From Apostichopus japonicus (taxonomy: Eukaryota > Echinodermata > Holothuroidea > Aspidochirotida > Stichopodidae), in NCBI RefSeq assembly GCF_037975245.1, contig NC_092569.1, positions 901,001-965,000 on the forward strand: a stretch of 64,000 nt of DNA, read 5' to 3'. This document shows, piece by piece, positions 37,088-63,267 of the stretch (positions within the stretch are counted from its first letter, which is position 1; each line of letters starts with the position of its first letter). The notes below the pieces were generated by a model, which had not been told where the DNA came from, made no database searches, and saw only the letters and a program-made list of their open reading frames with translations. A program made the position numbers and the translations under genes.

Positions 37088-37186
37088 CTAATTAAATAGG
37101 AAATACAGAACTATTGCACCAACAAGCACTATAATAAACAACATACAGATTATTACTGCACAGCATTTCTTCCGCCGGGCAGCATT
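37088..37186 (-). CDS. Gene C exon 4 (membrane anchor and stop)
   Basis: Acceptor TTGGTTACAG, then NAARRKKCCAVIICMLFIIV, LVGAIVLYFLFN and TAG. RRKK before the helix and the short end match gene A exon 10 better than gene B does. Confidence 0.88.
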   Translation of the reverse strand, partial: NAARRKKCCAVIICMLFIIVLVGAIVLYFLFN

Positions 37187-38740
37187 CTGTAACCAAAGAT
37201 AAAAATAAAACAAATTATAGAAATGGAAGTAATTGTAAATGTTATTCTGTTTTAATTGATAATTCAACATAATTCCAACCGTTTGACATTAGTGTCATTG
37301 AAAAAGGAGATCAATTTACTTCCTGGATCAAGATTCATAAGAAGTAATACGATGCCCCAGTCTGACACAGGTTTTTGATTGGACGGGGACAGAACAGGGG
37401 GAGAAACTCCATCCCCCACCCCACCTCTACCCCAGGGTCCTGTTGTAGAAATAGTTGCTAGAAACTATCATGCTGTCACGTTTGCGTTTTCCTCGTAAAC
37501 TGAGATCCCCTGTCCTATAAGTACAATTACCTGATATAACCTCAGAGAGGTTGACATGCAAATGAAGTTGGCATGTAAAATCTAGATAGAGACCGTTCCA
37601 GTCTGAAGAAAAGATGTTTAGACTTGCCTTATGCCTAACAGCTTCACTGAGATGATCGTTTGCCTGCCCTACGTCACTACATGCATTTTCTACGCTGGCT
37701 TCAATATTATCTAATAACACAATCAAATGAATGAGGATATCGGTTTGAGAAATACTTATATGTGAACAAAGCTCATGAATAAACAAAGGTCACACAGGTT
37801 GGAATTATCAGATTTTACAGATAAGATTATAGGTACCATTTTAACTGCATCTACAAATCAAAAACCAGAAATTGATCAAATTGATTAAATTTATGAAATT
37901 TATCCATCTTTTCCGCGCATTAGCAATCATTCAAACTTCACTGGAAACATATCCGTGTTATTCCTATATTTGTGTAGTTTCCATTTCATAACATTAATGT
38001 GTAATCTAAAAGAAGTCTTACCAATTCCGCTGCTCTGGTTTCGGATTAATTCAGCTAAACCTATGGATATTGTATTCACATCTTCTAGATTTGACTGTTG
38101 ATAATATAAAAAAGCAAAATAATTGTGCTCTTCGTCATAATTTTGCATATATTTCATAGAGATATAGCCAACATTACACCATATGGTGAAGGTTTCTGTG
38201 ACCGTATGTTGGCAGGCTACCACACCTTATGTGGTAAATGCTATATTCTGCGTGTTTGAATGCATGTATAGCGGTACATATTAGCAGTAAACATTGAATG
38301 TCTACATGAATTAACCCTTCCACTGCATGCATCAGGCTCTTGTACACGATAGCTGTGTATAGACCACTTTCTGCGAGTCGCGTGAAACATACCTGTTTTA
38401 GCCCTCTATACCAAACAAGATAGCTGCATGGACTACTCCATACTTCTAAATATCTATGTAAATCAATCCATATAAGAGCCTGTATTTAATAGCTCCATGT
38501 TTGAATATTAACAGCAAAACTTACCCTGAGTTTATTAAGTTGACACTCTTGTTCAATTAAAATTTCCACCTCTTCTTCCTGCTGTTTCAAAGTTTGCTCC
38601 ATTACGTTTCTAGTCCTCCGGTTCCCTACTACCAATGACTCTCTGTCGGAGGGCAAGGACCTTTCAAAAGGTGGGTTCAATAATTCGCAAAAGCATAGTA
38701 CAACAACATCAACAACAAACGAAATCCTTCTCGTTGTCAT
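37088..38740 (-). CDS. Gene C: second diverged Qa-SNARE paralogue (3' cassette; N-terminus uncertain)
   Basis: Four minus-strand exons carry a SNARE motif and anchor: up to 38740 (or 38642) through 38525, 38022-38094, 37628-37710, 37088-37186. Seen: EVEILIEQECQLNKLR; SNLEDVNTISIGLAELIRNQ with the zero-layer Q; DNIEASVENACSDVGQAN; NAARRKKCC, a membrane helix and FN plus TAG. The 73- and 83-nt exons and all phases equal those of genes A and B. Translation could start at an ATG at 38740 (156 aa). The first exon could instead begin at acceptor CCCTCCGACAG (38642), which gives phase 2 as in gene A exon 7 and would imply upstream exons. An AATAAA signal lies about 67 nt after the stop (37016-37021). 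The third intron has a GC donor, as in gene B. Inferred role: Q-SNARE with endosomal ancestry. Confidence 0.78.
37628..37710 (-). CDS. Gene C exon 3, with GC splice donor
   Basis: 83 nt, acceptor TGTGTTATTAG. Codes for NIEASVENACSDVGQANDHL and then SEAVRHK. Ends AAG before GCAAGT, a consensus GC-type donor. No GT at this site keeps the frame. Confidence 0.85.
38022..38094 (-). CDS. Gene C exon 2 (zero layer)
   Basis: 73 nt, acceptor ATTATCAACAG, donor GTAAGA, phase 0 to 1. Codes for SNLEDVNTISIGLAELIRNQ and then SSGI. It is diverged from gene A but has the same register, including DVN and the Q. Confidence 0.85.
38525..38642 (-). CDS. Gene C SNARE cassette exon 1 (start uncertain)
   Basis: If begun at the acceptor ending at 38643, it has 118 nt (phase 2 to 0) and codes for ESLVVGNRRTRNVMEQTLKQ then QEEEVEILIEQECQLNKLR. 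Donor GTAAGT. The frame stays open upstream to an ATG at 38740 (MTTRRISFVVDV), so an unspliced start is the alternative. It aligns with VERENQLKKLE of gene A. Confidence 0.7.
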
Positions 38741-38829
38741 ACCTTACTACAAGAGAAAGCTTCTCGTTGCAATAAGTGAAAGCCTAACAGGTGTAATTAC
38801 TTCATTATTGACTTTTACTTGATCAAAGC

Positions 38830-38868
<39 letters not shown>

Positions 38869-38932
38869 TATATATATATGCATATATATATATATTTATA
38901 TATATATATATATATATATTTATGTGTGTGTG
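38830..38932. repeat. AT microsatellite
   Basis: TA repeats with ATGCATATAT and TTATGTGTG interruptions. Confidence 0.95.
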
Positions 38933-39260
38933 AGTGTGCACCTGTCTGCAAAGCTCAACAGCCATACAGCTAACATATATAAGGAGGTAACAATGTACTA
39001 ACGTATTCATATATAAATATATTAATATCTTTATCAGGTATACAATTTCATTCCTATCGTCCTAATGTTTGTTTAAAGTTACGAAGGAGAGTAAAGTTCA
39101 TGCTCTGCTGGGACAAAGGCCATGTTGCTTATCAACTAAGCTACAAGTCATTACCCTCACAATGTCGATTCTTACAACGTAGTGAGTGAATTACAGTATG
39201 TGTTATACGAAAATTACGAAAAGACCCATCCTCATTAAAACTTGATAGTTGACAAGTCTG

Positions 39261-39990
39261 TTACAATAAGCTACTCAGTTGAAAAATATTTGCAGACGTT
39301 GCATAATCTGACAGATCAATCTTTCCAATATTGACAGAAGAACAAGATTCTGACATTTTATAAATTTCTTTGGGAAGGTTATAAACTGATATGACGATAT
39401 GATCATGGAGGGCTAGTGTACCTTTAGCAGTGCTAACAATGTTATCGGTATATCGCGGCTCACTTGCCGATACTACAACTTGACATAGGAGCATTGGAAG
39501 GTCATTCCGTGTATTGCAGAATTCAGATAGTTCTTTCAACAGAGCCTTCTTAAAGAAATCTGTTACTTCCAAATTTTAACTGTGTTATAATTAAATCTGT
39601 TCCAGTTGGAGATTTAAAACAAAACATTGGGGTATAAACCAGAAGAAAAAAAACCAGAACAATAAAAACAAACTAGAGGCACTGTTTTTAGCTTTATTAT
39701 ATATAGTTCTTTCATAATTTAATAAAGAAACAACACCAAAACAACAACATAAACAACAACAAAAACAACAACAAAAACGGCAAATGTTTTTACAACAACT
39801 GGATTCAATGCAGTTGGTTAGCATTATAGGGTTTAGTGACATCTGTAAGATCTGAATAGATAACAAACTTCAGCACAAGGCTTATGCAATTGCTCGTGCA
39901 GCTTTGTAAGTCGCTTAATTCACTTCTTATCCTCGGTTTAGATTTAGAATCATCCGCACTGACTCCACATTCACTAGAAAGTCCGATCAT
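39261..39990 (-). other. Possible diverged Habc-coding exons of gene C
   Basis: Two minus-strand open stretches lie 5' of the gene C cassette. One (39805-39990) has ATG and contains SELSDLQSCTSNCISLV, which lines up with the first Habc helix (compare SSIIQTCSGNIQRI in STX12). The other (39261-39572, no ATG) contains KELSEFCNTRND and RYTDNIVSTAKGTL, faintly like gene A exons 3 and 4 (IERLTRMLGTQED, HYTNQLAKDTNKML). Splice sites at the expected places are poor, so these may be chance ORFs or decayed exons. Confidence 0.25.
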
Positions 39991-40672: not shown

Positions 40673-40737
40673 GTCCATGGCCTACTTGGTTAGCGGGAGG
40701 CCGGGTTCGAATCCCGGTGGAGGCTGGAGGTTTTTTT
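40673..40737 (+). pseudogene. tRNA-like remnant or SINE head lacking the anticodon arm
   Basis: A perfect T-arm CCGGGTTCGAATCCCGG (40703-40719) contains a pol III B box. An A-box-like TGGCCTACTTGG lies only about 25 nt upstream, so the anticodon region is missing. A T7 run, a possible pol III terminator, follows at 40731-40737. The acceptor stem does not pair. Not a functional tRNA. Confidence 0.55.
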
Positions 40738-41365: not shown

Positions 41366-41467
41366 TTATGGTCTTAAAACAAAATATAAAGTAAGTGCTA
41401 AACCAAGCAAAAGTAAAATAAGCAAAAGGCAAAACCACAATCGACATTTCTTCCATTTCACCTTTTT
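41366..41467 (-). CDS. Gene B exon 4 (membrane anchor and stop)
   Basis: Acceptor CTTTTTTTACAG, then KKVKWKKCRL, a hydrophobic run rich in Leu, LYFVLRP and TAA at 41366-41368. Same layout as gene A exon 10: basic patch, one membrane helix, two or three terminal residues. Confidence 0.85.
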   Translation of the reverse strand, partial: KKVKWKKCRLWFCLLLILLLLGLALTLYFVLRP

Positions 41468-44400
41468 CTGTAAAAAAAGAAAACAAAAAGAAATATAAAA
41501 AGTGAAATTAATACAGACTCAGACAAAGCAAAAGAAGAAGAAACATTTTTTTCCTTCCTTTGGCAGTATCACCATCCTTATATAAAACCAAAAACAATTT
41601 GAAAGCATCTTTGTCGTGCTCGAGATCTCAGCACTGTTATAATTTACCATTTCACGGAACACGTATGGTGCCAGTCAATATCTAATTTGCATATAAGGCT
41701 CAAGGGAGACATTTTTTCATATTTTATAACGTTATCATGCAGATTGCAACCATATGATTGCAAAATTTCTTCTAGAAAATAATATGCAGAGCGTTCGTAT
41801 GCGAAATAATATATTATAAATTGTGTTTTCTTTACATACCGTACGTGACAGTTAAATAATATTCCAAACAAATCGAGCTATACATCAACATGTTTAATCC
41901 AAAATTCTGTTTCGATTGAACAAAAACCCTTTATCGTTATTTCTCAGGATAACCAGTGTTAATTATCATTATAATCACGAAAATAATGTGCTAGCACTGA
42001 ACAGGGAGTATATGAAGAACAATGCGGTCTCAATAAGGAAGGTTCTATACCGGCTTATGTCATGGCTCGGATGGGGTGTGTAACTGCCCAATGTTTAACA
42101 CAAGTTTCACAGTCTGCTCGTTTATCATGAGATAAAAACACCTCTTTCGATCTGTCGGAAAGTCTACTAAGCTTTTGTACTCTTAGTAGAACTAACAAGA
42201 AGTATACACACCAAAAAATCACTAAAATAAATTACAAGAGAAAGCGTTTAACTCTTAACATGAGGATGACTGTGGATAGAATTAACTATATATGTTGTAA
42301 GACGGATAAAATACCCTGCTATCAGTTATATTTCTATATACGATTGTTAAGTTTTAAGAAATGACCATTTTAAACATCCGAGGCTCATACTTTAAAGGGG
42401 CTGAAATGCTGAGTCTAACACAGATATACCATTAGGTCATTTCCTTAAATACGACACAGAACTCCAAACATAAGGCATTTATGGCCTTAAATATTCGTCG
42501 GCGTCTCGTTTCGATTCGTTTATTTGTTTTCCACACCACATGGCATACATAATACAGAGTCTAAATATACAAGGAATGCATATACAAACATGGCGTGAAC
42601 TTGGAAGTAAACTCAACAACTCTTGTGGGCATGTCGAGAGCTTACTTCCCCGAAAAATACAAACACAAGCAGAATAACGACAAATGTACTTTAGTTATTT
42701 AGAGTAAAAGCACCGATTACGAGAACACATCAATAAGGTAACAATTCCCATGTCCCACTTTTGCCACCCCACCTCCTCACCACCCCCTCCCCAAATGACG
42801 CTTAATGGATCAAACTAGAGATTTTATAACGTTTTAAACTAAACTAAAGCAAAAAGTAGGAAGAACTATAGAAACACTGCTATGCTCTACAACCTTTCTT
42901 TAGTTTATTGATCAAGACATGTCAGGAAATAAAAGTGTTTAAATTCATCTTTTAATAATGGAATTAAACAAAGGTAGGTGGTATACTTGCTTTATACTTT
43001 ACAGTTTTGTTGACGTACTCCGATGCTGCATAAACGGCATATTTTGTTTCACGAACGTCAGCTTCAATGTTGTCTGAAATTTAAAGATGAAAAACAAAGC
43101 AAGAAACAAAAGGGAAGTTATCAACATAAGTACAAACAAGGGCGTAGGAACCGGGGGGGCTGGGGGCGCCAGCCCCCAGTGAATGTGGAGGGGCGGAAGT
43201 ATCATTCCGCCCCCCCCCCCCCCGCTTCGCAAGTCAGAAAACCCCTTTTTCATTTCCAAATGAGAAAAAAATCTCATTTGGAGCACCAAATTGCATCTAA
43301 GGCCAGGTGAAAATACAAAATTAAGTTTACAAAATGGAGTGGGTGTTGCTATATTGTGTGCTATATTGCACCAAATTGCATCTGAGGCCACCTGGAAATG
43401 CAAAAAATTCCAAAGGGGAGGGGGACACCCCTCCCCTTAGACCCCTCCCCCAGGCCGGCCATCAGTCTTCAGCCCCCCACTCAAAAGTACCTTCCTACGC
43501 CACTGATTACAAAACAGAGACTTAGACAGCCTTTGTAATATCTGAGCGTATACGACACCCTGGCCAACTGTGAGTGTGACGTCATAATGTTGCATACATG
43601 GATTTCCAGCTTTAGTGTCAAACATCCAATTAGTTGAAAAAAACATACCAAAATGAGCTAAAACTGTAAATAATCAATTCTTGTGTAGTTTCTTCCTATG
43701 TCCAAGTAGCTGCTTAGCGTAGTAAAATAGCTGCCTTCTAGGCAGATGTTGTTTTCAAGACCGATTTGAGGAGGGGATGTTGAGGGGGTTGGGGTGGGTG
43801 GGGGTCGGGTAGAGGGTCAACATTAAAGAGTACTGAGTACCAAAGTTGTTACCTATGTGGTGTCCCTGTTCTTCTACCAAACGGGAAACGTGTAAAGTGA
43901 TTTCATGCACGTCTTTTACAGATGACTGTAAAATGAAACAGAACGATTGTAAGGAAAGTGAGGCCAAAAGTATCATCGATGGATAGTAATAAAGGTAAGT
44001 GAATACTACCTTGATTAGTGAATTGTATCATTAACAGTTTCAGAAACAAAGATTTGTCACTAAATGATAGTTAGTATACATGTTAAATGTATGTTGCCAA
44101 AATAGTGAAAAAGACTTCAACTGTGTCTTAAATTGTAGGGCCAGTTTAGTATATCTAGCAATATATTGTCAAAAATGCTTTCTAATTTTCGAGAAAATAA
44201 ATTGTTGTAACTAAAAATGCCCAAAAAATGTTTGAATTATACATATCGCATTTTCTATATATTGATTGGGACCCTTGTTCACCTCCATTCCAACCCTCCC
44301 AAAATAAGTATATAAATAATAATAAAACACATATAAAATTTGTATTTTACCACGTTTGCATTCATAAACATAGCTTATATATGAATCAAGGCAGTAAGAA

Positions 44401-44517
44401 ACTCTTTTGTCTTAACAAACTTACTTCAATGTGATCTAGTTGTTCTTTTTGTTGGAGTAATACTTCATAATCTTTCTCACGTTTCACCTTTCCATGTTTC
44501 TGCAATTGTTGTGTCAT
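41366..44517 (-). CDS. Gene B: short Qa-SNARE paralogue, SNARE motif plus membrane anchor only
   Basis: Four minus-strand exons (44425-44517, 43853-43925, 42991-43073, 41366-41467) join into 351 nt, or 116 aa. Seen: MTQQLQKHGKVKREKD and a glutamine-rich helix start; SSVKDVHEITLHVSRLVEEQ with zero-layer Q51; DNIEADVRETKYAVYAASEY; then KKVKWKK, a Leu-rich membrane segment (about 91-114) and RP plus TAA. Exons 2 and 3 are 73 and 83 nt with the same phases as gene A exons 8 and 9, so this is a diverged copy of the gene A 3' cassette. No Habc is visible. The ATG has a good context (AAGAATGA) and an in-frame TGA lies 9 nt upstream, so it can start translation. An AG directly before the exon would also fit splicing from an upstream phase-2 exon. 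The third intron has a GC donor. Function inferred: a membrane-anchored Q-SNARE. It could also be an alternative 3' cassette of gene A. Confidence 0.78.
42991..43073 (-). CDS. Gene B exon 3, with GC splice donor
   Basis: 83 nt, acceptor AATTTCAG. Codes for NIEADVRETKYAVYAASEY and then VNKTVKYK. The frame joins the next exon only if the exon ends at AAA before GCAAGT, so the intron is GC-AG. A GT donor at the nearby AGTATAC would shift the frame of the anchor exon. Confidence 0.82.
43137..43505. mobile_element. hAT-like MITE in an intron of gene B
   Basis: A 369-bp element whose ends carry inverted GGCGTAGGAA (left CAAGGGCGTAGGAAC; right TTCCTACGCCACTG). It is flanked by near-identical 8-bp direct repeats AGTACAAA (43129-43136) and ATTACAAA (43506-43513). 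Eight-bp duplications and CA...TG ends fit the hAT superfamily. The interior is GC-rich with two copies of ACCAAATTGCATCTNAGGCC and no ORF. Confidence 0.7.
43853..43925 (-). CDS. Gene B exon 2 (zero layer)
   Basis: 73 nt, acceptor ATTTTACAG, donor GTAACA, phase 0 to 1. Codes for SSVKDVHEITLHVSRLVEEQ and then GHHI. It is equivalent to gene A exon 8, with the glutamine kept. Confidence 0.85.
44425..44517 (-). CDS. Gene B exon 1 (SNARE cassette exon 1)
   Basis: ATG to donor GTAAGT, 31 codons, ending EVLLQQKEQLDHIE. It aligns with gene A exon 7 (ALVERENQLKKLE). Starts either at the ATG or one base upstream at an AG acceptor (phase 2). Confidence 0.72.
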
Positions 44518-45130
44518 TCTTGCTCAGCTGTCCACTGTATATAAATTGAAACGTCTCCTTATCATATTTGTCACAGTTTCAGGATTTCCAGAGGCAAATA
44601 TAACTTTAAATGAATCATTAAAATCAAAACAAATGTGCGATATATTGCTAACTCATTGCACGTAAACAACTACCCTCCACATGACCAATAATGTAACAGC
44701 AGCGGCCATTTTGTTTAAGTTATATATTCGCACTGCACAGTGAGTTACAAAGGGAACATTACACTAAGCTACAATAGTCAGTGCTGTTTATTAATGTACA
44801 ACGTTATATATATATACATAAAGGCCAAAGGTTGATGTTCATTGTACCAATCTTATCACAATGCAGTTCAACATACAGTGCTTGAAGTTTCCAACCCATT
44901 TAATCTACCCATGTGTCAGTCATTATTTTGTTGTTTGAATCTCGTTAAAAGTACATTCACTTATGAATCACTTGATAACTACAGCATTACCCGCCCGAGT
45001 CTAATATGCAAATTGGGATGAATAAAACAGAGGGTATGTGACGTATCGCTCATAGATCCCTTACTTGTAAATTTAGTTCACTTTTATTTCGTTATAGCAA
45101 TTTTGTGATTATGGTGTAGTATACAAACAA
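44518..45130. other. 5' region of gene B, no other feature
   Basis: If the ATG at 44517 is used, this would hold its promoter. No clear TATA box or initiator was identified. Confidence 0.3.
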
Positions 45131-45889: not shown

Positions 45890-46360
45890 AAATATAGCAT
45901 GCAATAGTTATATAGCATACAATAGTTATATAGCATACAATAGTAATATAGCATACAATAGTAATATAGCATACAATAGTAATATAGCATACAATAGTAA
46001 TATAGCATACAATAGTTATATAGCATACAATAGTAATATAGCATCCAATAGTAATATAGCATACAATAATAATATAGCATACAATAGTTATATAGCATAC
46101 AATAGTAGTATAGCGTACCATATTAATATAGCATACAATAGTAATATAGCATACAATAGTTATATAGCATACAATAGTAGTATAGCATACAATAGTTATA
46201 TAGCATACAATAGTAATATAGCATCCAATAGTAATATAGCATACAATAATAATATAGCATACAATAGTTATATAGCATACAATAGTAGTATAGCGTACCA
46301 TATTAATATAGCATACAATAGTAATATAGCATACAATAATAATATAGCATACAATAGTCT
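45890..46360. repeat. 18-bp minisatellite with 180-bp higher-order repeat
   Basis: About 26 copies of ATAGCATACAATAGTAAT. The two lines starting 46021 and 46201 carry the same series of variants for about 125 bp, so a ten-unit (180 bp) block was duplicated. The 150-codon minus ORF over it is a by-product of the multiple-of-three period. Confidence 0.93.
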
Positions 46361-51808: not shown

Positions 51809-51904
51809 CTAGTTTCTCAAAACCAAATACAGAATTAGAGCGACAATAAGCAAGGTAATGAGAATACATATAATAAGCATGAACTTCTTCCTTCTGGCCT
51901 TTTT
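51809..51904 (-). CDS. STX12: Gene A exon 10 (membrane anchor and stop)
   Basis: Codes for KKARRKK, a hydrophobic helix FMLIICILITLLIVALILYL with VL, then RN and TAG at 51809-51811. This is a tail anchor facing the lumen with a two-residue end. Acceptor TTTTTTCAG. No AATAAA was found close downstream. Confidence 0.95.
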   Translation of the reverse strand, partial: KKARRKKFMLIICILITLLIVALILYLVLRN

Positions 51905-54900
51905 CTGAAAAATAAAAAGGAGGGGAAATGTGAGAAAATGTGAGGAAAGTGAAATAGAAGGCATATTTTGGAATAACTTGATGATTTATAATGTCATTTT
52001 TCGATGAAGTGCATGATTAAATTTGGCAGAACAATGTCATATATCAAACACATTAATGTTCATCATTCTAGACTTTCAAACTCACAGGTTTTAAACTTGC
52101 TCACTGACAATGAGCATAATGATCATTTTTTTGCCACAATGTCACAACTCTTTACAAGTTCGGGGGGGGGGGGGGGGGGGGGCTGAATTGTAAAAACTGA
52201 CTTAAAGTACAGATACAACAATATAAGTACAGGTACAATGGTATGAGTAGGGGTACAACGGTATCAGTAGGGGTACAACGTTTTGAGTACATGTACAATT
52301 AGAGTTTCCCTTGGTAGGAGTACAAGTGTGAGTACAAGGCTCTGAGAGTAAGTATGAGCAGTCTTGCACTAGTATCTACTTATACATTTCAAAAATAACC
52401 CAAGTACAAGTATGAGTAGAAATCCATGTGAGTACAAGTGAGAACAAGTGCAGGTACTGTGCTAGCATTCGAGTACAACTACAGACTACACTACAAGTCT
52501 AAAGTATACTTCATCGAGAAACAAAACATTTTTTAAAGAAAAGTATCATGTGCTATTAACCAGGAGCCATAAAGTATGTATGAGAAGCTTTCAAAGGTTA
52601 GCCAAAAAAACAGAAATGATTTTGGTAGCGTTGTTCAGGATAACTACCCACTAAATTTCAACTTTGTGAGCGAGAATAAATACTTCTCAAAGAATTTCTA
52701 GTGTGGTAGAGTGGTTGCAGTGGACAACATCAACTAAATCTCTCACAGAGCATTCCTACACATACATTTTATAATGAGACTGAACCTCAAAACAATACAA
52801 AATCTCTTTTATGTTCACTATGCTCATTAACCTGTCTGTATTCTGTGTGTGTATTTGTCCCTTCTGTGACTGTAACTTGTCATTCAGCTTCTGAGAAAGA
52901 TCCTGCTAGGATCGAAATGTCAGGCCCTCTTACTTTTACACAAAATTGAACCTGCTAAATTCCATCACTTTCATCACCTATCAGAAATTGTTCAAAGGTT
53001 GTCATCGTTCTCCGGGATGAGCAGGGCAACCCTTCCACTACATATCAAATTCATCAGACAATGTGTCATCTTTCATTTTATAATTCTCATTTATATGATT
53101 GTTTTTAGGAACGTAAGCAAGCCAGCAGCTTTAAGATATTAATGTCACGGATCTGGATTTAAATTCTTACCTGGTATTCTCTGGCTTTCACGAGTTGAGT
53201 GTTCGCCGATTCTACATGGACCTCAGCTGACTCAACATTTGCTTCTATGCTATCTATAACCAGCAGCAAAAATATCAAAATATAAAGGAAAAAATTTAGA
53301 ATTCCGTCTTTATTATTCATATACTTAATAAATGAATAACATTGATGTATTGTCTTAACAATAACCCCTCTTTGCTGATTTGCTCTTTATCATATCAAAA
53401 AGCCTTACTTGTCATGAAATATGGAAATTTTTGATCTTCAAGTTACCAAAAGAAAAAAAAACAAATTTGACATACAAAAAAAAGAAAAATATTGAGAGTT
53501 ACACATACCAATCATTTCTCCCTGCTCATGGACCATCGATGCAACATCTTTAAATATCTGATTCACATCTAAAATATCAGACTGTTGAGGACATAAAACA
53601 AAAAGAAAAGCATTAGCTAAGAGAACCAATAGAATTGAACTTATTTAATTATTCATTTGGCTGGAATACCAGCTTCTGGTGGGCTAAATCTACCTAGTTT
53701 AGGTGGGCCAAGTCAACCAGGACTTGGTAAGTCAGTTAAATAGGCCCTGGTGGGTCAAATCATTCATATACCACTCTAGCAGACCAACCATAAAAATTCA
53801 TGGTTAGCCAAATTTGCAAGATCATTTTGGATCAAAATCTACCTGCTGTAGTTTTGCTTGGTCAAGTCAACTAGGAATTGGTAATTCAGTCAAACAGTCG
53901 CAGATGGGTCAAATCACCAGGGGACATACTCTTCAAAGCCTCGGTGAGCCACACCTTCCGGGCCATGGCAGGCTAACATTACTTACACTGGTGGGCCAAA
54001 TCTACTGGTACTGGTGGCCCAGATTTAACAATTCAGAGAGTCGAGAGGCCACTAATGGCTTCTTTCACAGCCTCATGAGAAAAGTACTCACTAATATTAA
54101 CTGCTAACCACAAGCAGCAATGCTGAAACTAGGTTTACTGTGGAACTATTCACACTTCATCCTTGACTGTTTGGAACTTTTTTTTCTTTGATCACCCTTA
54201 GTAACACAAATGGTCAAATACAAAAAGAAAATATACATTCACATACCTACAAGCAAGTATAAATACACTAACAGGCATTGCCTTGTAGCCTCTGTATAAC
54301 ACAATTTCTAAACCACTAATGTAAGTGACTGTAATCTTACATTTATAATTAGTAACATGGCTGGAACATTATTACATATTGCATCATAGTTACAGAGCTA
54401 TTTTGCACTAAAGGCATCACAATCGTTACACTGGGGAATATTCTCAAACGTCAGTTCATTTTAATAGAAACACCAGAGCCACTTAAAATTGAACAAAAGC
54501 AATGACCCTTTGAGGCTTCTATACTTTTCCTGCTTTGAATATTTCATAAAATATCGAAAACTGAAGGTATTTGTAGCTTTAACGTCATCTTCCATGTTAC
54601 CAGAGTTACTTACTTCTAACTTTTTTAGTTGGTTTTCCCTTTCTACCAAGGCATCCATGTCCTCTACTTGGACCTGTGCCTGAGCAGTGCTGAGGAGGAG
54701 GAGGAAATATTCCATGATTTAATGAACTTGATGAGATTACAATCATAATATGATGTCAGAGATGATTTTAAACCTTTTTTTGGTCGACAAATTTTAGCAT
54801 GATGCACATTGGCATTTCTTAATTTTCATTGATATTTTCTAATGCACTGCTCTTTTCGTAGTGATTTTGGAATCTTCTTGTAATTGCATCCTATTCCTCC

Positions 54901-57900
54901 TCTATTTCCCTTCTTCCTCCCGCTCCCCATCCCTCGCTGCCCCTCCCTTCCCCCCCCCCCCCTCATGGAATCACTAATTCACCACAGGTCGTCCCTGATA
55001 TTGGAATTCAGTCTGTTTCTTATTTACAAAAACCTTAACACCGTATAAGTACCACACTTTAGCAGAGTTACCTGGCTTAGCTTACTGAGAATATAAGAAT
55101 GGGAGCTGACTTGAGTGAACTTGAGAAGCCTGGAATATGATTACTGCTGGCAATAATCTACTTTAAAGTTCATCTCAGTATATTCCTACTCTCACCTATC
55201 ATAACCACCCAATGACTACGTCTCCTGACTTGAGTAACCTGAGTGACCCTGAGAAGCCTGGAATATGATTACAGCAGGCAATAATCTACTTAACAGTTCA
55301 TCGCAGTATATTCCTACTCTTACCTATCATAACCACCCGAAAACGGATCCTAACCTGAGTAAACCTGGGAAGCCTGGATTATGATTACAGCAGGCAATAA
55401 TCTACTTAACAGTTCATCGCAGTATATTCCTACTCTTACCTATCATAACCACCCGAAAACGGATCCTAACCTGAGTAAACCTGGGAAGCCTGGATTATGA
55501 TTACAGCAGGTAATAATCTACTTAACAGTTCATCGCAGTATATTCCTACTCTTACCTATCATAACCACCCGAAAACGGATCCTAACCTGAGTAAACCTGG
55601 GAAGCCTGGATTATGATTACAGCAGGCAATAATCTACTTTAAAGTTCATCTCAGTATATTCCTACTCTTACCTATCATAACCACCCGAAAACGGATCCTG
55701 ACCTGAGGGATCATCTTCATATGGATTCTAAAATGAAACATTAAAATTACGATTTATTTTTAATTTATGTAAACACTTATATTGAAATTGAAAAAACTAA
55801 ATAAATTAATGGAAGTTCATATATGATATCTCTTTCACTTTACAATAATAGATCAAGGTTTGCTTGCTCATTTCATCACCTCAAATCATTTATCTAGAAA
55901 GAAATTAGGAAAAAGCAAAAATGAAACTCCCAACTATTTCAAGTATATATCTATTATTATCTTTTATATCCTCTATAACATCAATGAACCTTAATGAGTG
56001 ACATCACTGTTAATATGTAATATGTTGATTGCATGTCTCCTCTCTAATTACATTTGTCCTTTTGTACCTGGCTGGAAACTTAACAAGAAAAAAAAGAATG
56101 AAAACATTTCATGGTTCCTTGCTGCTGTTCATTAGTTCCATTCATAGGGAAATTTCTAACAAAGCCCTAATACAACAACAGTAATTTATGCTCACAAACT
56201 TTTGTTGCCAAAGTAATGCTAAGCCCTGATATCAATTGCAACACACATCAGTGTGTGAAGACTATCTACCATTATCATCATACCAAGTTTGACGAAATTC
56301 CGACTAGTAATAGTAGCCAAGTAATTGCAATTTGGAGTATTTCACGTTTGACCCCATGATCTCATTAATATTCATGAAATGAGCACCAACATCAACAGGG
56401 ATAATCTACTTACTATGGGCCACCCACTCACCAAGTATGGTAATGATTGGTCATTCCCTCGTTGAGTTATTGTGCATACAAACTTTTCATAACGAAATAA
56501 TGCTAGCCCCCCCCCCCCCCCTTAAAAACATGCATGATATCAATTGCAACATACATCAGTGTGTGGAGACTATCTACCAATATCATCATACCAAGTTTGA
56601 CGAAATTCCAATAAATAGTAGCTAAGTTATTGCAACTTGGGAGTTTTTCACGTTTGACCTGTGACCTCATTAATATTATTTAACTTTGAACTCGTATAAC
56701 TTCGCACACGAAGGTCACATTGGGGTCAACCTATTGACATTTATGATCAGAAGGCACCTTGGACATCTGAAAATAGCATCGAAACTGTAAAAATCCCCAA
56801 AACACGAAACGGTCACCAGAGGTCAAATTGAGGTCAAGGGTCACCCAGATGCGGGTTGACAAATGGATTACATTGAAGCAACTCCCAACCTTAACGGACA
56901 GTTCGTTCTCAAGTTATCACAAAAATACTAGTTTTTTATCATTAATTGACCTTTGGTGACCTCGGATCACATGACCGTTAAGTTTGAAAATATTCCCCTA
57001 TACCATTTGCAACTTGTCCCAAAATATCAACCATGTCACACCTTGGAACTGAGAGTTATTGCATTCAATGTCTGAATATTAACTTTGACCTCGTATAACT
57101 CCGCACACAAAGGTCACACGGGGGTCAACCCATTGACATTTATGATCAGAAGGTACCTTTGACATCTGAAAATAGCATCGAAACTGTAAAAATCCCCAAA
57201 ACATGAAAAGGTCACCAGAGGTCAAATTGAGGTCAAGGGTCACCCAGATGTGGGTCGACAATTGGATTAAATTGAAGCAACTCCCAACCCTAACGGACAA
57301 TTCGTTCTCAAGTTATCGTAAAAATACTAGTTTTTTATCATTAATTGACCTTTGGTGACCTCGGATCACATGACCGTTAAGTTTGAAAATATTCCCCTAT
57401 ACCATTTGCAACTTGTCCCAAAATATCAACCGTGTCACACCTTGGAACTGGGAATTATTGCACTAAATGTCTGAAATTTTACTTTGACCTCATAAAACTT
57501 CACACACAAAGGTCACCTGGGGTAAACCTATTGACATTTTTGATTGGTGAGACGTGAATATAGCATCAAAACTGTAAGAATTCAAACATTTTTTTCTTTG
57601 CCCATTTTCTCACCGAAAATACTAGTTTTTTAACATTAATTGACCTTTGATGACCTCGGATCACATGACCGTTAAGTTTGAAAATATTCCTCTATACCAT
57701 TTGCAACTTGTCCCAAAATATCAACCTTGTTACACCTTGGCCCTGGGAGTTATTGCATTAAATGTCTGAAAATTAACTTTGACCTTGTATAACTTTACAC
57801 ACAAAGGTCACCCGGGTGTCAACCCATTGACATTTTTGATCGGAAGGTACCTTTGATATCCAAATCTAGCATCAAAACCAAACATTTTCTTTTTCGCCCG

Positions 57901-58576
57901 TTTTCTCCCAAACTAAGCACATTTTTTCTAATGTGACCTTTGACCTTTTGACCTTGGTTGCAAATGTAGTTTGATCTGCTGATTCCAAAAATCAACACGA
58001 TAAGTCTGTACAGCCATCCTAACTCTGACCGAAAACTTTGACCCCATATAAGTTCGCACACAAAGGTCACACGGGGGTCAACCTATCCATATTTATGATC
58101 GGAAGGTACCTTTGACATCTGAAAATAGCATCGAAACTGTAAAAATCCCCAAAACATGAAAAGGTCACCAAAGGTCAAATTGAGGTCAAGGGTCACCCAG
58201 ATGTGGGTCGACAATTGGATTACACTGAAGCAACTCCCAACCCTAACGGACAATTCGTTCTCAAGTTATCGCAAAAATACTAGTTTTTTAACATTAATTG
58301 ACCTTTGGTGACCTCAGATCACATGACCGTTAAGTTTCAAAATATTGCCCTAACCAGTTCACAACTTGTCCCAAAATATCAAACTTGTCGCACATTGGCA
58401 CTGGGAGTTATTGCAGTTTTAGTATTTTGGGTTTTTGGACCATAACTGACCTTTGGTGACCTTTGTGGGCACCAAAAACAATAGGGTTCATCTACTCACT
58501 ATGGGCCACCCACCCACCAAGTTTGATCATGATCAGTCAATCCCTTGTTGAGTTATCGTGCATACAAGCTTAAGCG

Positions 58577-58612
<36 letters not shown>

Positions 58613-61600
58613 CAACCTGAATACATAGGTTCCTTTGCTTTCAGCAAGGAACCAAAAACCTAGTCTCAACCATTCTACTCTGTTAATACTTTCCTGACAT
58701 GGCATAACAAAAAACAGCAATCTTCTTGATCTGTCGTATAGTGCAGACCACTAACAAGTTTCACTGACAGATTGATAATCTAACTACTGTAGGATTGAAT
58801 TTGTGAGTAATTAAGGAATGGAATACTACAAGAGGTGTAATTAAGGAATGGAATACTACAAGAGGTGTAATTAAGGAATGGAATACTACAAGAGGTGTAA
58901 TTAAGGAATGGAATACTACAAGAGGTGTAATTAAGGAATGGAATACTACAAGAGGTGTAATTAAGGAATGGAATACTACAAGAGGTGTAATTAAGGAATG
59001 GAATACTACAAGAGGTGTAATTAAGGAATGGAATACTACAAGAGGTGTAATTAAGGAATGGAATACTACAAGAGGTGTAACTCAGGGAAGACTCACCACT
59101 GAATCTGAGGTTCCTCTAGCCCTCTCTACGCACTCTCTCTCCACCTTAGCTGCATCCCTCTGCACCCTTTGGAATTGGTTAAGGGAGTCGCTGAAGTCAT
59201 TTGTGAGACGGTCTTTCTGCATCCTTTGTTGCCTCTGAGAGAACGAGGGTTAAACATGTTAAACCAAATTGCAAAAATGTAGGTTTTTTCGATGATGTAA
59301 TTTAGCTACAGCTAACCCTGGTTCATAAATTCACAAAAACCATTCCCTTTTCTCTGTGTCTAACAGATAATAACCGGTGCTGTGGCCCCAGTGGATTAAG
59401 GCGGTGGCATTTGAAGCAATGAGGCTAAGCAATCAGGACTTTTGGTCCTCGGCCAGTTCATAGTAAGGTGGGTTTTTCATCCAAGAGCAATCTACGGTTT
59501 TCCCATCTGAAATGACTTTCTAAATTGAAGAGATTCCAAATTTGATTTAAAATGTTGAATTTAAAACATTAACACCTGATTATTTGATATTTTATTATTA
59601 GAAAATGCGATTTGTCTTATCTTTGTCATCTTACAACTTATGGATGCTTGTCAGTAAACTTCCATATGTCATTGAATAGGAATAGTTTCAACAATTTGGG
59701 GCATACTCTGCATAAACTGATATGATCTTAGCCTCATTAACCCACTTCCACATTACTTAAATAAGGTCAAATTTGTCCAATATCAAGAAAGATACACAAA
59801 ACGTGTACTTATTGAATGCATCCATTGCTCATTGATAATCTCCAACAGCAAATCAAATTCAATTTCACATCCATGCAGATATTCCTTAAAGAAGTATATT
59901 TATTGTTTGGCTAATGAGGACCACACCCAACAGTTAAAACCTGGAATACTTAGAGGGCATTTTGACCTTCGTAAAAGTCAAATACAGGTTTTAATGAGCA
60001 CAGACCAACTAGGTCCGCTAGAACAGAAGAACATCTTAATTATGCTTACCGAGTCGGACTGATTTGTAGAAGGTGGAATGGCAGTAAGGTCTTTTAACAT
60101 CTTATTAGTATCTTTGGCCAGTTGATTCGTGTAGTGCTGTTTTTCATCTCTGCAAAACAAAGAAATCAACATTCACTTAATAAATCTTAAAGCTGCATGC
60201 AGATTATTATCTCAACTCCAGGAATGACAATGGTACAATGTTTACAATGTTTAACACCATTGGTACAATGTTTAACACCATTGACTTTGTTAAACAAGAT
60301 ACATAATGTAAGCTCCTTTAAAGCAGTACTCACAGTATCATTGACCTTCATCATAGGGAGCCTCAACACAACTGACAGTATCAAATAAAGTATCAAATAA
60401 ATTCTAAGCTCCTTTAAACACTTGAATGTATACACATCAGTCCATAAATCTGCATAACTTATCACAGAATAATTGTTTCCTATGTTAACTTAGCAAAATC
60501 GTATCCAATTTTGACATACATTTACACATGTAAAATAGATTGAATGATTAAAAGAGTATTATCCATCCTGTAGTCTCTATTACTATACTGGCACCAGGGC
60601 TTCTTTGTCAGTGGGTCATACAAGGTATCACATCACATTAAAGGCTATCAGTAATGGGCCCAAAAGTTAGCCATGTGACGGTTTTCAAAAGTACTTTCAT
60701 TGAGATTCTGCACCATTCACTTAATTCACAAACATTTATGAATGTTAAGTCAGACAATTTTCTTTCTCACTGTGAAATACAAGTTATGATAGTGGTCACA
60801 AAAAACCTTGTTGATGGTTGACCATGAGTGACCATTACTTGTTTTCTAGCATATTTTTGGGCATTGCTGATGACTTTTAAGTGCTATGTCTGTTGTTACA
60901 AAACAAGGATTGAGTTAAGGATGGATAGGGGCATAGCATTTTCAAAGCTTTGAAAGGGCACCAGGACAATTTCTCTAAAGTGAGAAAAAGGCACGCACAG
61001 AAATGATGAAAAACATGAGCATATTTTTTTTTCACTTATGACCTAGCATATTCTCAGATTTCTGATCAACAAGTCAAAGTTTAATGATCGAGATAATTAG
61101 GAGGGCACCTACGGCAACGTTACTAAAAGGGGCATAGCAGTGGTTGCCGTCAGCAACAGGTGACTTTTAACGGCAGTGGGGCCAGTAGCAGGGGTACTGT
61201 CAGTGGGGCCAGTAGCAGGGGTACTGTCAGTGGGGCCAGTAGCAGGGGTACTGTCAGTGGGGCAGTGTGGCCAGTAGTGTGGGCACTGTGCCACTGTCAC
61301 TGCCATCAGATAAATTGAGCCTTGTTATCAACTACTCACAGTTTGGCTCTGCATTGTTTTGTGTCCTCCTGTGTTCCCAGCATCCTGGTGAGTCTTTCAA
61401 TATCCTTGACTGAGAGGAAACAAAAAAATTGCAAAACTTTTCTGAAACAAATACATTTACTCCATTACATTTGTACTGTATTCTGTACCACATACTGTCA
61501 AAACCCAAATGTTGTCAACTTAAAACTCCTAGCTACTGTAGATACATGATAACATTCAACAAAGCAATTTTGAAATGTTAAGTGGCTTAATTACCAGCAT

Positions 61601-63267
61601 TTGACATAGGCACTTTCACTTCCATGGCATATTTAACATCAAAGGCTTAACTTTGCACTGCATTGGACTTGTTGTAAAAATTGTGGTCAATAACAAGTAA
61701 AGTATTAACTGCATCAATTCAAGGGACGAATCCAGTCCCTTGATTCAACAGTGACTGGAGCAGTGTTTTCTGATAGGAATGATAAAGGTAAGGTTAAGTA
61801 TTAACGGCATAACTTCAAGGGATGACGTATCCAGTCCCTTGATTTCAACAGTGACGGAGGTGACTGGAGTACAGTAGTTTTTTCTGATAGGAATGATTGA
61901 GCCAGGAAAATGGCTGGTGCTGACTCAACTTGACCAAGTTGACCTTAACTGTAAGTGACAGATTACAACCTTGTGTCACAGCATTTCTACAGAACCAACA
62001 TGTACTTCTTTACTTAACCAACATGGCAATTTGGTGAAAAGTTGACTTTGTAAAACTGTAGTGGAATGAAACACAAAAAATCAATTACAAAACACTTAAC
62101 ATGAACATGTATGGACTCACCATTTTTGGAAATCTTTTGAATGTTGGATCCAATACTTGCAGCCAATCGGTTGAAGTCTTGTGCACTGCCCTTCCCTGTA
62201 AGGTAATCTAAAGGATTAAAAGTTGTTCGGGACGATAAGGCCATCTGCAAGCACATCATGCAAACACAGCGTAAATCACAATTAAAGACATTTGCAGAAC
62301 ACAGATATGTGTTCCTCAGTACGAATGCAGGGTTCACTTTTAAGATAGTGTGCAAGTCATGATTTGATGAACTAAACGATCTTTTTTATAAAAGATTGTT
62401 CTGCTGTTCACATGTATGTAAGTTTTTGTTGAATGCTGATTTCAAAGATCAGAAGATAATGGATAACAGAAATGCCTAACCAGTGACTGCATTTTGAAAA
62501 ATGTTTGGTCATGAAATCATCCACTTGTACATTACTACTGTTTACTAAAGACATCATTTTTTGATAATAAATGTTTTCCTACTCTATCTTCCATCTTTGA
62601 AGGAGTGCAAAGAGTTTCACATGCAGGAAAGGTATGCATCCTATCCAGATACAATATGACTAGTACTATGTAAGCAACAAATCTTGGAGTTTGACCATCA
62701 TGGATGCACAAAAATGAAAAATACTAAACTACTGTACAATACTACTTTTGTGGACAAAGACAGCAAAAGTGCAACAAGATTGGTTAATAGGAGAGATGGA
62801 TGCAGATAGGAAGGGAGCATGCACATATCAAACATTAATTTGTTTCTTCTCTTTAATCTCTTTAATCTCTGTAATTCTCTATTTGCCTGATAAGATGAAT
62901 ACAATCCACCAGACCCTTAGAATCAATGCCCAACATGCATGAAAGCTAGTTTCGAATATGGGCTTGACGTTAAAAAGATAACTTAATGGAAATTTGCTGG
63001 AAAGCTCCAATAAGTGTACATAAATTTTCCAATGTTTTGCCAAAATTCCTGCCATCCACCAAAACGTTTTAGGGTAGAGTCCCACAGCTTGTGATATGTA
63101 AATATTTTAAGACCTCTTCCATGTACATTATAGTATTGTACTCTGAAGATATTTAGTGTACTGTACCAGAAAAAAAATTTATCCGACTACTTACCCGATG
63201 AATATGATGTAAAACTTCCTCTACCCTGGTTAAAATCACCACCAAAATCCCCCGTTCCAGAAGTCAT
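51809..63267 (-). CDS. STX12: Gene A: syntaxin-12/7-like Qa-SNARE, complete, ten exons
   Basis: Ten minus-strand exons join into 840 nt (279 aa plus stop): 63195-63267, 62121-62195, 61340-61409, 60050-60149, 59097-59234, 55672-55727, 54614-54689, 53509-53581, 53171-53253, 51809-51904. All junctions are GT-AG and in phase. Seen: a Gly/Ser-rich start (1-25), Habc helices (about 28-150) with SNIQKI, HYTNQLAKDTNK and RQQRMQKDRL, a linker with an acidic NPYEDD stretch, a SNARE motif (about 185-245) with ILDVNQIFKD, zero-layer Q216 and DSIEANVE, a basic KKARRKK, then one membrane segment (256-277) ending RN. Length matches vertebrate STX12/STX7 (about 260-276 aa), and several blocks are closer to STX12 as I recall it. 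Family role: Qa t-SNARE of early/late endosomes driving homotypic and endosome-lysosome fusion. The start ATG is the first in frame. Diverged copies of its last four exons lie downstream. Confidence 0.95.
52160..52480. repeat. G-tract plus degenerate GTACAA minisatellite
   Basis: A run of about 21 G (52162-52182), then AGTAGGGGTACAACGGTATC-like units fading into AGTACAAGT repeats. Within intron 9 of gene A...51809 side is excluded; the tract lies between exons 10 and 9. Confidence 0.8.
53171..53253 (-). CDS. STX12: Gene A exon 9 (SNARE C-terminal half)
   Basis: 83 nt coding DSIEANVESAEVHVESANTQ and then LVKAREYQ, almost the family consensus. Acceptor TTATAG, donor GTAAGA, ends in phase 0. 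Confidence 0.96.
53509..53581 (-). CDS. STX12: Gene A exon 8 (SNARE N-terminal half, zero layer)
   Basis: 73 nt coding SDILDVNQIFKDVASMVHEQ and then GEMI. The glutamine before GEM is the ionic zero-layer residue that defines Q-SNAREs. Donor GTATGT, ends in phase 1. Paralogous exons of the same length and phase are at 43853-43925 and 38022-38094. Confidence 0.96.
53650..54060. repeat. Degenerate TGGTGGGCCAAATC repeat in intron 7 of gene A
   Basis: GGTGGGCTAAATCTACC, GGTGGGCCAAGTCAACC, GGTGGGTCAAATCA and GGTGGGCCAAATCTAC recur irregularly. Confidence 0.6.
54614..54689 (-). CDS. STX12: Gene A exon 7 (SNARE cassette exon 1)
   Basis: Codes for TAQAQVQVEDMDALVEREN and then QLKKLE, the entry into the SNARE helix (compare 'LIHERESSIRQLE' in STX7). 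Acceptor CTCCTCCTCCTCAG, donor GTAAGT, phase 2 to phase 0. Confidence 0.93.
55080..55690. repeat. 116-bp tandem repeat carrying a copy of an exon end and splice donor
   Basis: CCTATCATAA recurs at 55195, 55323, 55439, 55555 and 55671. The last three intervals are exactly 116 bp and the first is 128 bp. The unit includes the 3' part of gene A exon 6 with its GTAAGAG donor. The copy at 55671 is the real exon. Confidence 0.95.
55672..55727 (-). CDS. STX12: Gene A exon 6 (linker)
   Basis: A short exon coding NPYEDDPSGQDPFSGGYDR, the flexible linker between Habc and the SNARE motif. Acceptor TTCATTTTAG, donor GTAAGA, ends in phase 2. Its 3' half and donor have been copied into the adjacent 116-bp tandem repeat. 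Confidence 0.85.
56112..58663. mobile_element. Non-autonomous Helentron-like (HINE) candidate in intron 5 of gene A
   Basis: TGGTTCCTTGCTG (56112-56124) is the exact inverse of CAGCAAGGAACCA (58642-58654). The right copy is the 3' arm of a hairpin (GGTTCCTTTGC, loop, GCAAGGAACC, 58629-58653), followed by CTAGT at 58659. Inside are a two-copy repeat of about 306 bp (56228, 56534), about five diverged copies of a roughly 400-bp unit with GACCTTTGGTGACCTC and ACAAAGGTCAC motifs, and a (CA)n run (58577-58610). No long ORF. Sub-terminal inverted repeat, internal tandem repeats, microsatellite and 3' hairpin fit HINE elements. A MITE is the alternative. Confidence 0.6.
58807..59080. repeat. 30-bp minisatellite, about 9 copies, next to exon 5 of gene A
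   Basis: TAATTAAGGAATGGAATACT plus ACAAGAGGTG repeats with period exactly 30 and almost no differences. It ends 16 bp from the exon 5 donor. Confidence 0.97.
59097..59234 (-). CDS. STX12: Gene A exon 5 (Habc helix c)
   Basis: A 46-codon exon beginning RQQRMQKDRLTNDFSDSLNQ and continuing FQRVQRDAAKVERECVERAR, the third Habc helix (compare RQQRLQKERL in STX12). Acceptor CTCTCAG. Donor GTGAGT lies only about 16 bp from a 30-bp minisatellite. Confidence 0.95.
59376..59485 (+). mobile_element. tRNA-Ser-derived SINE fragment in intron 4 of gene A
   Basis: GTGGCCCCAGTGGATTAAGG with CGGTGGCATTTGAA resembles the 5' half of a tRNA-Ser (A box TGGCCNAGTGG). A degraded B box, ACTTTTGGTCCTCG, follows about 45 nt later, then GTGGGTTTTTC. 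Confidence 0.55.
60050..60149 (-). CDS. STX12: Gene A exon 4 (Habc helix b)
   Basis: Codes for DEKQHYTNQLAKDTNKMLKD and then LTAIPPSTNQSDS. The block YTNQLAKxT is diagnostic of the syntaxin-7/12 group. Acceptor TTTTGCAG, donor GTAAGC, ends in phase 0. Confidence 0.95.
60228..60290. repeat. Short tandem repeat in intron 3 of gene A
   Basis: GGTACAATGTTTAACACCAT and shorter ACAATGTTT units in succession. Confidence 0.7.
61174..61270. repeat. 27-bp minisatellite, three exact copies plus decayed ones
   Basis: CAGTGGGGCCAGTAGCAGGG plus GTACTGT at 61174, 61201 and 61228, then degenerate copies. The Thr/Pro-rich minus ORF here is intronic. Confidence 0.95.
61340..61409 (-). CDS. STX12: Gene A exon 3 (Habc)
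   Basis: Codes for VKDIERLTRMLGTQEDTKQ followed by CRAKL, matching the conserved 'QLGT..D...' region of STX7/12. Acceptor TTTCCTCTCAG, donor GTGAGT. Starts in phase 1 and ends in phase 2. Confidence 0.92.
61700..61900. repeat. Two-copy duplication of about 95-100 bp in intron 2 of gene A
   Basis: GTATTAACNGCAT...TCAAGGGA...CCAGTCCCTTGAT...TTTTCTGATAGGAATGAT occurs twice. The first copy has a CAAGGGAC/GTCCCTTG hairpin. Confidence 0.85.
62121..62195 (-). CDS. STX12: Gene A exon 2 (Habc helix a)
   Basis: Codes for GKGSAQDFNRLAAS followed by IGSNIQKISKN, the conserved first Habc helix. The acceptor chosen (CTTACAG) keeps phase 1. A second acceptor (TTGCAG) lies 53 nt upstream, followed at once by an in-frame ATG (62248). 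An alternative first exon starting MALSSRTTFNPLDY is therefore conceivable. Donor GTGAGT. Confidence 0.88.
62920..63010. repeat. Dispersed repeat copy 2
   Basis: AGAATCAATGCCCAACATGC, ATGAAAGCTAG, ATAACTTAAT and GAAAGCTCC match the copy near 51.4 kb. Confidence 0.65.
63195..63267 (-). CDS. STX12: Gene A exon 1 (start codon, N-terminal segment)
   Basis: Starts with ATG at 63267 and codes for a Gly/Ser/Phe-rich stretch (MTSGTGDFGGDFNQ and onward), as is usual before Habc in this family. Ends in phase 1 at donor GTAAGT (63194-63189). The ATG is preceded by CCAAT. A non-coding upstream exon is possible because an acceptor-like TTTTATCAG lies just upstream. Confidence 0.9.

Follow-up and report, generated by a model that had tools for sequence, protein, structure and literature searches.

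Two short cassettes, B and C, lie head to tail behind a full-length STX12/7-type syntaxin gene (gene A) on the minus strand of the window, the 64-kb stretch of DNA analyzed here, which is free of gaps (0 N) (Table 1). Our preferred reading, to which we assign a probability of roughly 0.55, is that B and C are two separate functional genes, generated by partial tandem duplication, that encode short Qa-SNAREs without an Habc domain. The initial annotation had described three Qa-SNARE cassettes on one strand, and all three were recovered at the same places and in the same order.

Table 1. Positions of gene A, cassettes B and C and their exons in the window.
Feature	Position	Strand	Remarks
Gene A, STX12/7-type syntaxin	51809..63267	-	261 aa in 9 placed exons, with splice sites and a single open frame
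A1	63195-63267	-	
A2	62121-62207	-	start picked to preserve frame
A3	61340-61409	-	
A4	60050-60149	-	
A5	59097-59234	-	
A6	54614-54679	-	
A7, zero-layer exon	53509-53581	-	73 nt; A7 and A8 together 53171..53581
A8	53171-53253	-	83 nt, GT donor
A9, last exon of gene A	51809-51904	-	transmembrane exon
Cassette B	41366..44517	-	protein of 116 aa
B6, first coding exon, from its ATG	44425..44517	-	in-frame TGA 9 nt upstream of ATG
B7, zero-layer exon	43853..43925	-	73 nt
B8	42991..43073	-	83 nt, GC donor (gcaagt)
B9	41366..41467	-	basic juxtamembrane stretch, transmembrane segment, stop
Cassette C	37088..38602	-	protein of 110 aa
C6, first coding exon, from its ATG	38525..38602	-	
C7, zero-layer exon	38022..38094	-	73 nt
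C8	37628..37710	-	83 nt, GC donor (gcaagt)
C9	37088..37186	-	basic juxtamembrane stretch, transmembrane segment, stop

Gene A carries the Habc domain of an STX7/12-type syntaxin (Pfam Syntaxin_2, E 1.6e-34) and a SNARE motif (E 2e-19). Among solved structures its closest relatives are STX12, STX13 and STX7, the best matches being STX12 for the Habc domain (E 2.4e-27) and STX13 for the SNARE motif (E 1.7e-23), which supports its earlier designation as a complete syntaxin-12/7; the placed set may lack a linker exon between A5 and A6. With its Habc domain, Qa SNARE motif and C-terminal anchor, gene A resembles metazoan STX7 and STX12(13) (Qa.III.b). B and C share with these proteins the motif, the anchor and a characteristic pair of 73- and 83-nt exons, but differ from them in having no detected Habc domain or linker and a polar residue at layer -3.

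The four-exon frames of B and C are open, with AG acceptors and GT or GC donors at every intron. As previously annotated, exons 7 and 8 have the same lengths and matching phases in A, B and C. B6 and C6 end in GTAAGT donors and encode a coil resembling that of A6, preceded in both cassettes by an ATG. The proteins exceed the cut-off of the Pfam SNARE profile PF05739 (26.8 bits), scoring 69.8 bits for A, 33.5 for B (E 4.1e-8) and 59.4 for C (E 3.5e-16), and B and C match solved syntaxins with best E-values of 2.4e-9 and 1.3e-9. The zero-layer glutamine is present in all three, within a core that reads SIEA in A but NIEA in both cassettes, in agreement with the initial annotation. The heptad positions follow the Qa-SNARE pattern, being mostly hydrophobic or small; layer -3 is F in A, T in B and S in C, B also has T at layers +4 and +8, and residues identical to A occupy 10/16 layers in B and 12/16 in C, compared with 10/38 and 11/38 positions elsewhere. 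The last exons encode KKARRKK (A), KKVKWKK (B) and NAARRKK (C), each upstream of a hydrophobic stretch and the stop codon; by eye, we read this end as a membrane anchor.

The 73/83 exon pair predates the cluster. Besides A, B and C, another full-length STX7/12-type gene on the same chromosome (C9:3.54 Mb), a paralog, carries it, whereas two genes that look STX1-like and STX16-like split near the zero layer instead (names and exon ends judged by eye). The pair is therefore ancestral to the subfamily, and equal lengths alone are no proof of tandem duplication: the equality noted in the initial annotation holds, but its value as a marker of copying does not. Likewise, the cassettes described as copies of the last four exons are real, without this implying that they are spliced to gene A.

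No Habc exon was found in the window outside gene A, whose exons A2–A5 scored 30–69 bits against 7.4 for the next match and 7.5 for reversed open reading frames; for B and C, neither Pfam nor the window profile search found the domain. In simulations, this search picked up at least one of four Habc exons in 80% of cases when identity was 35%, in 57% at 30% identity and in 30% at 25%. At B6, no phase-0 acceptor scored above -8.2, whereas the 18 reference acceptors all score -1.5 or more, and the best acceptor-like site would place the exon start at 44534. At C6, the best such site gives a start at 38642 in phase 2, and an internal phase-0 acceptor (exon start 38578) scored 0.5, comparable to the two poorest real acceptors (-1.5 and -1.0). 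Neither best site ranks above the 95th percentile among all AGs, and 14 and 20 AGs were examined, so both sites may have arisen by chance. The C6 frame is open upstream to 38743 and holds an additional ATG 46 codons earlier.

These data bear on the possibility, which we regard as doubtful, that B and C are complete syntaxins that have diverged strongly and whose Habc exons were missed in the spacers, 7.3 kb before B and 2.8 kb before C. The limited sensitivity of the search to diverged exons would allow for it, as would the length of the A–B spacer (7,291 nt) and the open C6 frame with its phase-2 acceptor-like site. It is countered by the lack of any match above noise in either spacer, the TGA just before the ATG of B6, the short B–C spacer (2,763 nt) and the phase-0 acceptor of full-length genes, which is unrecognizable at B6 and at best weak at C6. 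A start of translation at the ATG of each cassette is supported, though not firmly. The earlier description of B and C as 3′ cassettes stands insofar as they are partial copies; with an ATG of their own, and a TGA before that of B6, they look more like short genes than bare cassettes.

An unlikely arrangement is that of one gene with three alternative 3′ ends, in which the Habc and linker exons of A would be spliced to the SNARE and transmembrane cassette of A, B or C. The three cassettes share strand and order, and a phase-0 junction precedes each 73-nt exon, so that A6 could be joined in frame to B7 or C7. GC donors are often regulated, and B8 and C8 have one. A precedent exists in mammalian STX3, for which PMC11476516 describes isoforms STX3A and STX3B with common exons 1–8 and different exons 9–10, that is, alternative exons for the C-terminal SNARE half and the transmembrane segment in a single locus. 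In contrast to STX3 as described there, B and C each hold a whole SNARE motif and their own ATG, and their splice sites do not favor a shared 5′ half. Such splicing would skip B6 and C6, which nonetheless keep an A6-like coil and GTAAGT donors; the best acceptor-like sites before these exons do not match the phase of A5, and A5 joined to B6 at the best acceptor runs into a stop. Gene A, moreover, has its own last exon and lies 7.3 kb from B6.

B and C are heavily diverged from A and yet constrained. Second codon positions are conserved (51/74 for A–B, 47/74 for A–C and 51/74 for B–C; about 24–27 expected by chance), whereas third positions are near chance (23/74, 24/74 and 31/74; 20–21 expected), a difference with p-values of 7e-6 to 0.0016; first positions, at 29/74 in A–B and B–C, are no more than slightly above the chance level of 21–22. 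Synonymous sites are saturated, which makes dN/dS unusable (synonymous distances of 2.2 to 15, or failure of the method). We also simulated neutral evolution from A (5000 runs per distance), scoring a stop-free frame and three intact introns and leaving indels uncounted. Such frames survived in 11% of runs at 0.1 substitutions per site; the share dropped to 0.5% at 0.25 and 0.04% at 0.5, and to 0/5000 at both 0.75 and 1.0.

In a tree of nine sequences from a short alignment, B and C were sisters (ultrafast bootstrap 97%, FastTree 0.98), a pairing that could be helped by long-branch attraction; the two also have the GC donor of exon 8 in common. In the same tree, A grouped with (B,C) at 60%, and this group of three with STX7/13 at 77%. 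The B and C branches are long, at about 0.8–1.0 substitutions per site beyond a stem of about 0.6; that of A measures 0.05–0.11. The relationship of the three is supported but not firm: B and C appear to be sisters that arose through an initial partial duplication and then another duplication. At the DNA level, gene A and the B/C region share one 73-nt stretch of 74% similarity (E 2.4e-5), the other listed matches having E-values of at least 0.043; with so little similarity, the introns give no date for the duplication. The view of B and C as heavily diverged old duplicates is borne out, in that they are old partial copies evolving much faster than A with most SNARE layers kept. Among the open-access literature matches listed, we found no description of a tandem expansion of an STX12/7-type syntaxin, consistent with the annotator's remark that none was known.

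It appears quite improbable that an old tandem duplication left B and C as pseudogene fragments now in decay. The long branches would fit, as would the loss of hydrophobic layer -3 in both and the threonines at +4 and +8 of B; but neither frame is broken and the six introns are all intact at distances where neutral survival is essentially nil, and there is conservation at the core layers and at second codon positions. A recent loss of function would escape these measures and may have occurred. It is very unlikely that the locus combines proteins sharing one Habc domain with three swappable ends (A6 to A7, B7 or C7) and SNARE-only forms from the ATGs of B6 and C6, an arrangement by which splicing would let the animal change the fusion code of a single syntaxin.

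If B and C are short Habc-less genes, they would have been produced by an old tandem duplication that covered only the 3′ half of the STX12/7 gene, and by a second tandem duplication after it. Their products would be tail-anchored Qa-SNAREs of about 110–116 residues, predicted to begin with a short coil, continue through the SNARE motif and a basic stretch and end in a transmembrane helix, with neither Habc head nor linker. They would presumably be transcribed from promoters of their own and most likely reside in endosomal or lysosomal membranes, taking the Qa place in Q-SNARE bundles. The Habc head and linker normally regulate a syntaxin; lacking them, B and C should be free of autoinhibition and of head-dependent contacts with tethers or SM proteins. 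The replacement of F at layer -3 would be expected to weaken zippering in the membrane-distal half. Together, these two features would make a competitive role like that of an inhibitory SNARE (i-SNARE), or a specialized role alongside A, likelier than full replacement of A.

As described in PMC3627133, an i-SNARE is a SNARE that occupies a place in the bundle and renders it non-fusogenic, the mammalian/yeast examples named being syntaxin 6/Tlg1, GS15/Sft1 and rBet1/Bet1. A putative inhibitory role for B or C would be analogous in its mode of action; unlike B and C, the examples given there are not Habc-less Qa copies. Qa.III.b syntaxins have duplicated independently in several lineages, giving yeast Pep12/Vam3 and animal Syx7, Syx13, Syx17 and Syx20, according to PMC2639358; the cases described there concern duplicated syntaxins, whereas here only the 3′ part was copied, in tandem. 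Headless Qa-SNARE genes beside a normal STX12/7 would, if real, offer a natural test of what the Habc head is for and of whether an animal employs short Qa-SNAREs as competitors in endosomal or lysosomal fusion. They would also show partial tandem duplication creating a new short gene through an internal ATG. Confined to sea cucumbers, they would be a lineage-specific curiosity; present across echinoderms, a missed syntaxin subtype.

Searches for further copies covered the window, its flanks and the genome. Together, the two strands of the window hold 138 AG-flanked open exons of exactly 73 nt and 116 of exactly 83 nt, all of which entered an exon scan. Scores were 73 for A, 54 for B and 45 for C (next best 3.5) at 73 nt, and 67, 55 and 59 (next best -3.0) at 83 nt, the references including B and C so that their rank follows by construction; no fourth copy with exons of these exact lengths appeared. 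A profile built without B and C performed far more weakly: exon C9 scored 16.0 bits, C8 13.5, B9 12.0, B8 9.2, B7 8.8 and C7 3.7, against 6.4 for the best reversed-frame noise; B6 and C6 were not among the matches listed. A transmembrane-type exon at about 3162–3263 (minus strand) scored 14.8 bits with the cassette profile and 11.3 without B and C, above B8 and B7. We rejected it as a fourth cassette: its neighbors at about 11.8–3.2 kb, read by eye and with guessed joins, can be connected in phase to give a tail-anchored protein, in whose sequence we saw no SNARE motif and Pfam found nothing above cut-off. A profile scan of 30 kb of flanks gave a single match of at most 5.7 bits. tRNA and Rfam scans of the window returned 0 and 0, and the spacing of poly(A) hexamers was uninformative.

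When the whole genome was searched with the three proteins, A had 12 matches, B 5 and C 4, none of them a further member of the cluster. Nine of the 12 for A were its own exons and the rest fell at C9:3.54 Mb, C15:8.57 Mb (presumably the STX1-like gene) and C3:13.44 Mb (presumably STX16-like, both named by eye); B and C were not returned, so such searches miss relatives this distant. B and C matched their own exons and one locus that is not a SNARE, C1:1.69 Mb, the only outside match of B (E 0.027, one stop), being dismissed on reading. The genome-wide Pfam SNARE search yielded five matches, which did not include B: A, C, the C15 and C3 genes, and a locus at C8:21.7 Mb that we take to be STX5-like.

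The simplest account of cassettes B and C, two partial copies downstream of gene A (a complete STX12/7-type syntaxin), would be that they encode two short tail-anchored Qa-SNAREs derived from a partial STX12/7 duplication. We re-placed their exons, numbered after their gene A counterparts, by splice sites and open frame, and the positions assigned to both cassettes by the initial annotation proved correct. The spliced frames are open over 116 (B) and 110 (C) aa. AG acceptors are present at all introns of A, B and C, and donors are GT except for the GC common to B8 and C8, in contrast to the GT donor of A8. The Habc part of gene A (the N-terminal regulatory head of syntaxins) matches solved STX12 (E = 2.4e-27), its SNARE part matches solved STX13 and STX7, and Pfam returns Syntaxin_2 and SNARE; in this model, A2 was given a start that preserves the reading frame, and the model may lack a linker exon. 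Nine perfect head-to-tail 30-bp units (58807-59080) start about 16 nt past the 5' splice site of gene A exon 5, and the large intron between exons 5 and 6 contains 2.2 copies of a tandem 399-bp repeat (56680-57544).

Coordinates of the syntaxin features; positions are those of the window (C9:901001-965000) unless a chromosome is named.
Feature	Position	Strand	Remarks
Gene A	63,267 to 51,809	minus	9 placed exons, 261 aa; splice sites, open frame
B6	44,425-44,517	minus	
B7	43,853-43,925	minus	73 nt
B8	42,991-43,073	minus	83 nt, GC donor
B9	41,366-41,467	minus	
C6	38,525-38,602	minus	
C7	38,022-38,094	minus	73 nt
C8	37,628-37,710	minus	83 nt, GC donor
C9	37,088-37,186	minus	
Second full-length STX7/12-type endosomal syntaxin (L023/L024)	chromosome C9:3.536-3.556 Mb		2.6 Mb from gene A, same chromosome

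Both cassettes scored above the cut-off of the Pfam SNARE model and matched syntaxins of solved structure (best E 2.4e-9 for B and 1.3e-9 for C). When B and C were left out of the profile, noise from reversed ORFs reached 6.4 bits at best, a level exceeded by five of the eight exons (C9, C8, B9, B8 and B7) but not by C7 (3.7 bits); B6 and C6 were not among the matches listed. Scanning AG-flanked open exons on both strands for the 73-nt zero-layer exon and the following 83-nt exon gave scores for A, B and C of 44.5-73.2 (next best 3.5 among 138) and 54.6-67.2 (next best -3.0 among 116), respectively. Since the scan references took in B and C, these figures speak to the absence of a fourth copy rather than to the presence of B and C: no further cassette with exons of these two exact lengths was found in the window. 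An exon at 3.2 kb was rejected as a SNARE despite scoring 11.3 bits with the B/C-free profile, as it has no recognisable SNARE motif. Exons at about 3162-3263 and 11.3-11.8 kb (minus) seem joinable in phase; the product would be a tail-anchored protein ending in RRKK plus a hydrophobic stretch, from what seems to be a separate gene of no assigned family.

Amino-acid identity over 74 aligned codons is 32% for A-B, 39% for A-C and 31% for B-C. Third codon positions are identical near the chance level of 20-21 (23, 24 and 31 of 74, in the same order), and the saturated synonymous distances leave dN/dS without a usable value. Second positions agree at 51, 47 and 51 of 74, with 24-27 expected (Fisher p 7e-6, 3e-4 and 0.0016). 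The expected count takes no account of the coiled-coil pattern common to these proteins, which could contribute part of this signal. First positions (29, 40 and 29 of 74; 21-23 expected) rise clearly in A-C only. Identity to A reaches 10/16 in B and 12/16 in C at the core layers, and 10/38 and 11/38 in the remainder. At 0.1 substitutions per site, 11% of simulated neutral copies retained the frame and three introns; the share fell to 0.04% at 0.5 and to 0/5000 at 0.75 and above. A recent loss of function in B or C is possible.

The host is most likely A. japonicus or a very close relative: AjNotch-R, a 23-nt A. japonicus qPCR primer (PMC13164408), has one exact match in the genome (671,581,487 bases, 35 contigs), and its backward control has 0. 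A search of this genome placed the second full-length gene at 3.54 Mb; it has a SNARE match, and its manually joined pieces match Syntaxin_2. This gene also has the 73/83 exon pair, so the pair is old within the subfamily; genes on chromosomes C15 and C3, which we take by eye to be STX1-like and STX16-like, instead have the motif broken near the zero layer. A tree built on nine short sequences made B and C sisters (97% ultrafast bootstrap, FastTree 0.98). A joined them at 60% (FastTree 0.66), and this group joined STX7/13 at 77%; the 3.54-Mb gene fell outside. The layer -3 F is lost in both copies (T in B, S in C), and a common B/C ancestor would agree with this loss and the shared GC donor; the pairing may also be due to long-branch attraction.

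An ATG precedes the coil in both B6 and C6. In B6, an in-frame TGA lies 9 nt upstream of it; in C6, the frame is open upstream to 38,743, with a further ATG 46 codons upstream. A position matrix was built from 18 acceptors of the 3.54-Mb gene and of A, B and C, whose leave-one-out scores ran from -1.5 to 14.7. It gave one fair acceptor near each exon, with exon starts at 44,534 (B, score 5.2) and 38,642 (C, score 5.0, phase 2; A5 ends in phase 0). Either may be chance, since 14 (B) and 20 (C) AGs were examined and both sites lie no higher than the 95th percentile of AGs overall. The 44,534 acceptor, which puts the TGA before the ATG, would fit a 5' UTR intron in B. Phase-0 acceptors score -8.2 or less at B6, and the best open one at C6 (38,578) scores 0.5, comparable with the weakest genuine acceptors, so that direct A5-B6 splicing is disfavoured and A5-C6 splicing is possible. 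Joining A6 to either B7 or C7 would preserve the frame. STX3A and 3B share exons 1-8 and then differ in their 3' exons (PMC11476516). No Habc exon was seen in the window outside gene A, with simulated detection of 80%, 57% and 30% at 35%, 30% and 25% identity; diverged Habc exons of B and C could have been missed.

Partial duplication could have proceeded as follows: the 3' half of STX12/7 would have been copied in tandem, this half would have taken up an internal ATG as its start, and the short copy would have been duplicated again to give B and C. Free of Habc control, both would likely fill the Qa position of endosomal bundles, perhaps acting as weak or competing partners. Duplicated endosomal syntaxins are known, including Syx7, Syx13, Syx17 and Syx20, and Pep12/Vam3 (PMC2639358). 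Among the matches listed in the open-access literature, neither a tandem STX12/7 expansion, which the initial annotation also did not know of, nor a natural Habc-less Qa-SNARE gene is described. The main text of a preprint that treats extended gene families in a different sea cucumber mentions syntaxin or SNARE 0 times (PMC13228809). Among A. japonicus genes whose expression shows a linear relation to hydrostatic pressure, PMC6974979 lists STX12, in a section that leaves separate copies unmentioned.

The A-B spacer contains 26 copies of an 18-bp unit (45891-46358, 90% matches) with open frames on both strands, and a 104-aa open frame without a Pfam match lies between B and C (39261-39575, minus). 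A 144-bp tandem repeat of about seven copies (94% matches), resolvable as a 290-bp unit too, occupies 1688-2746.
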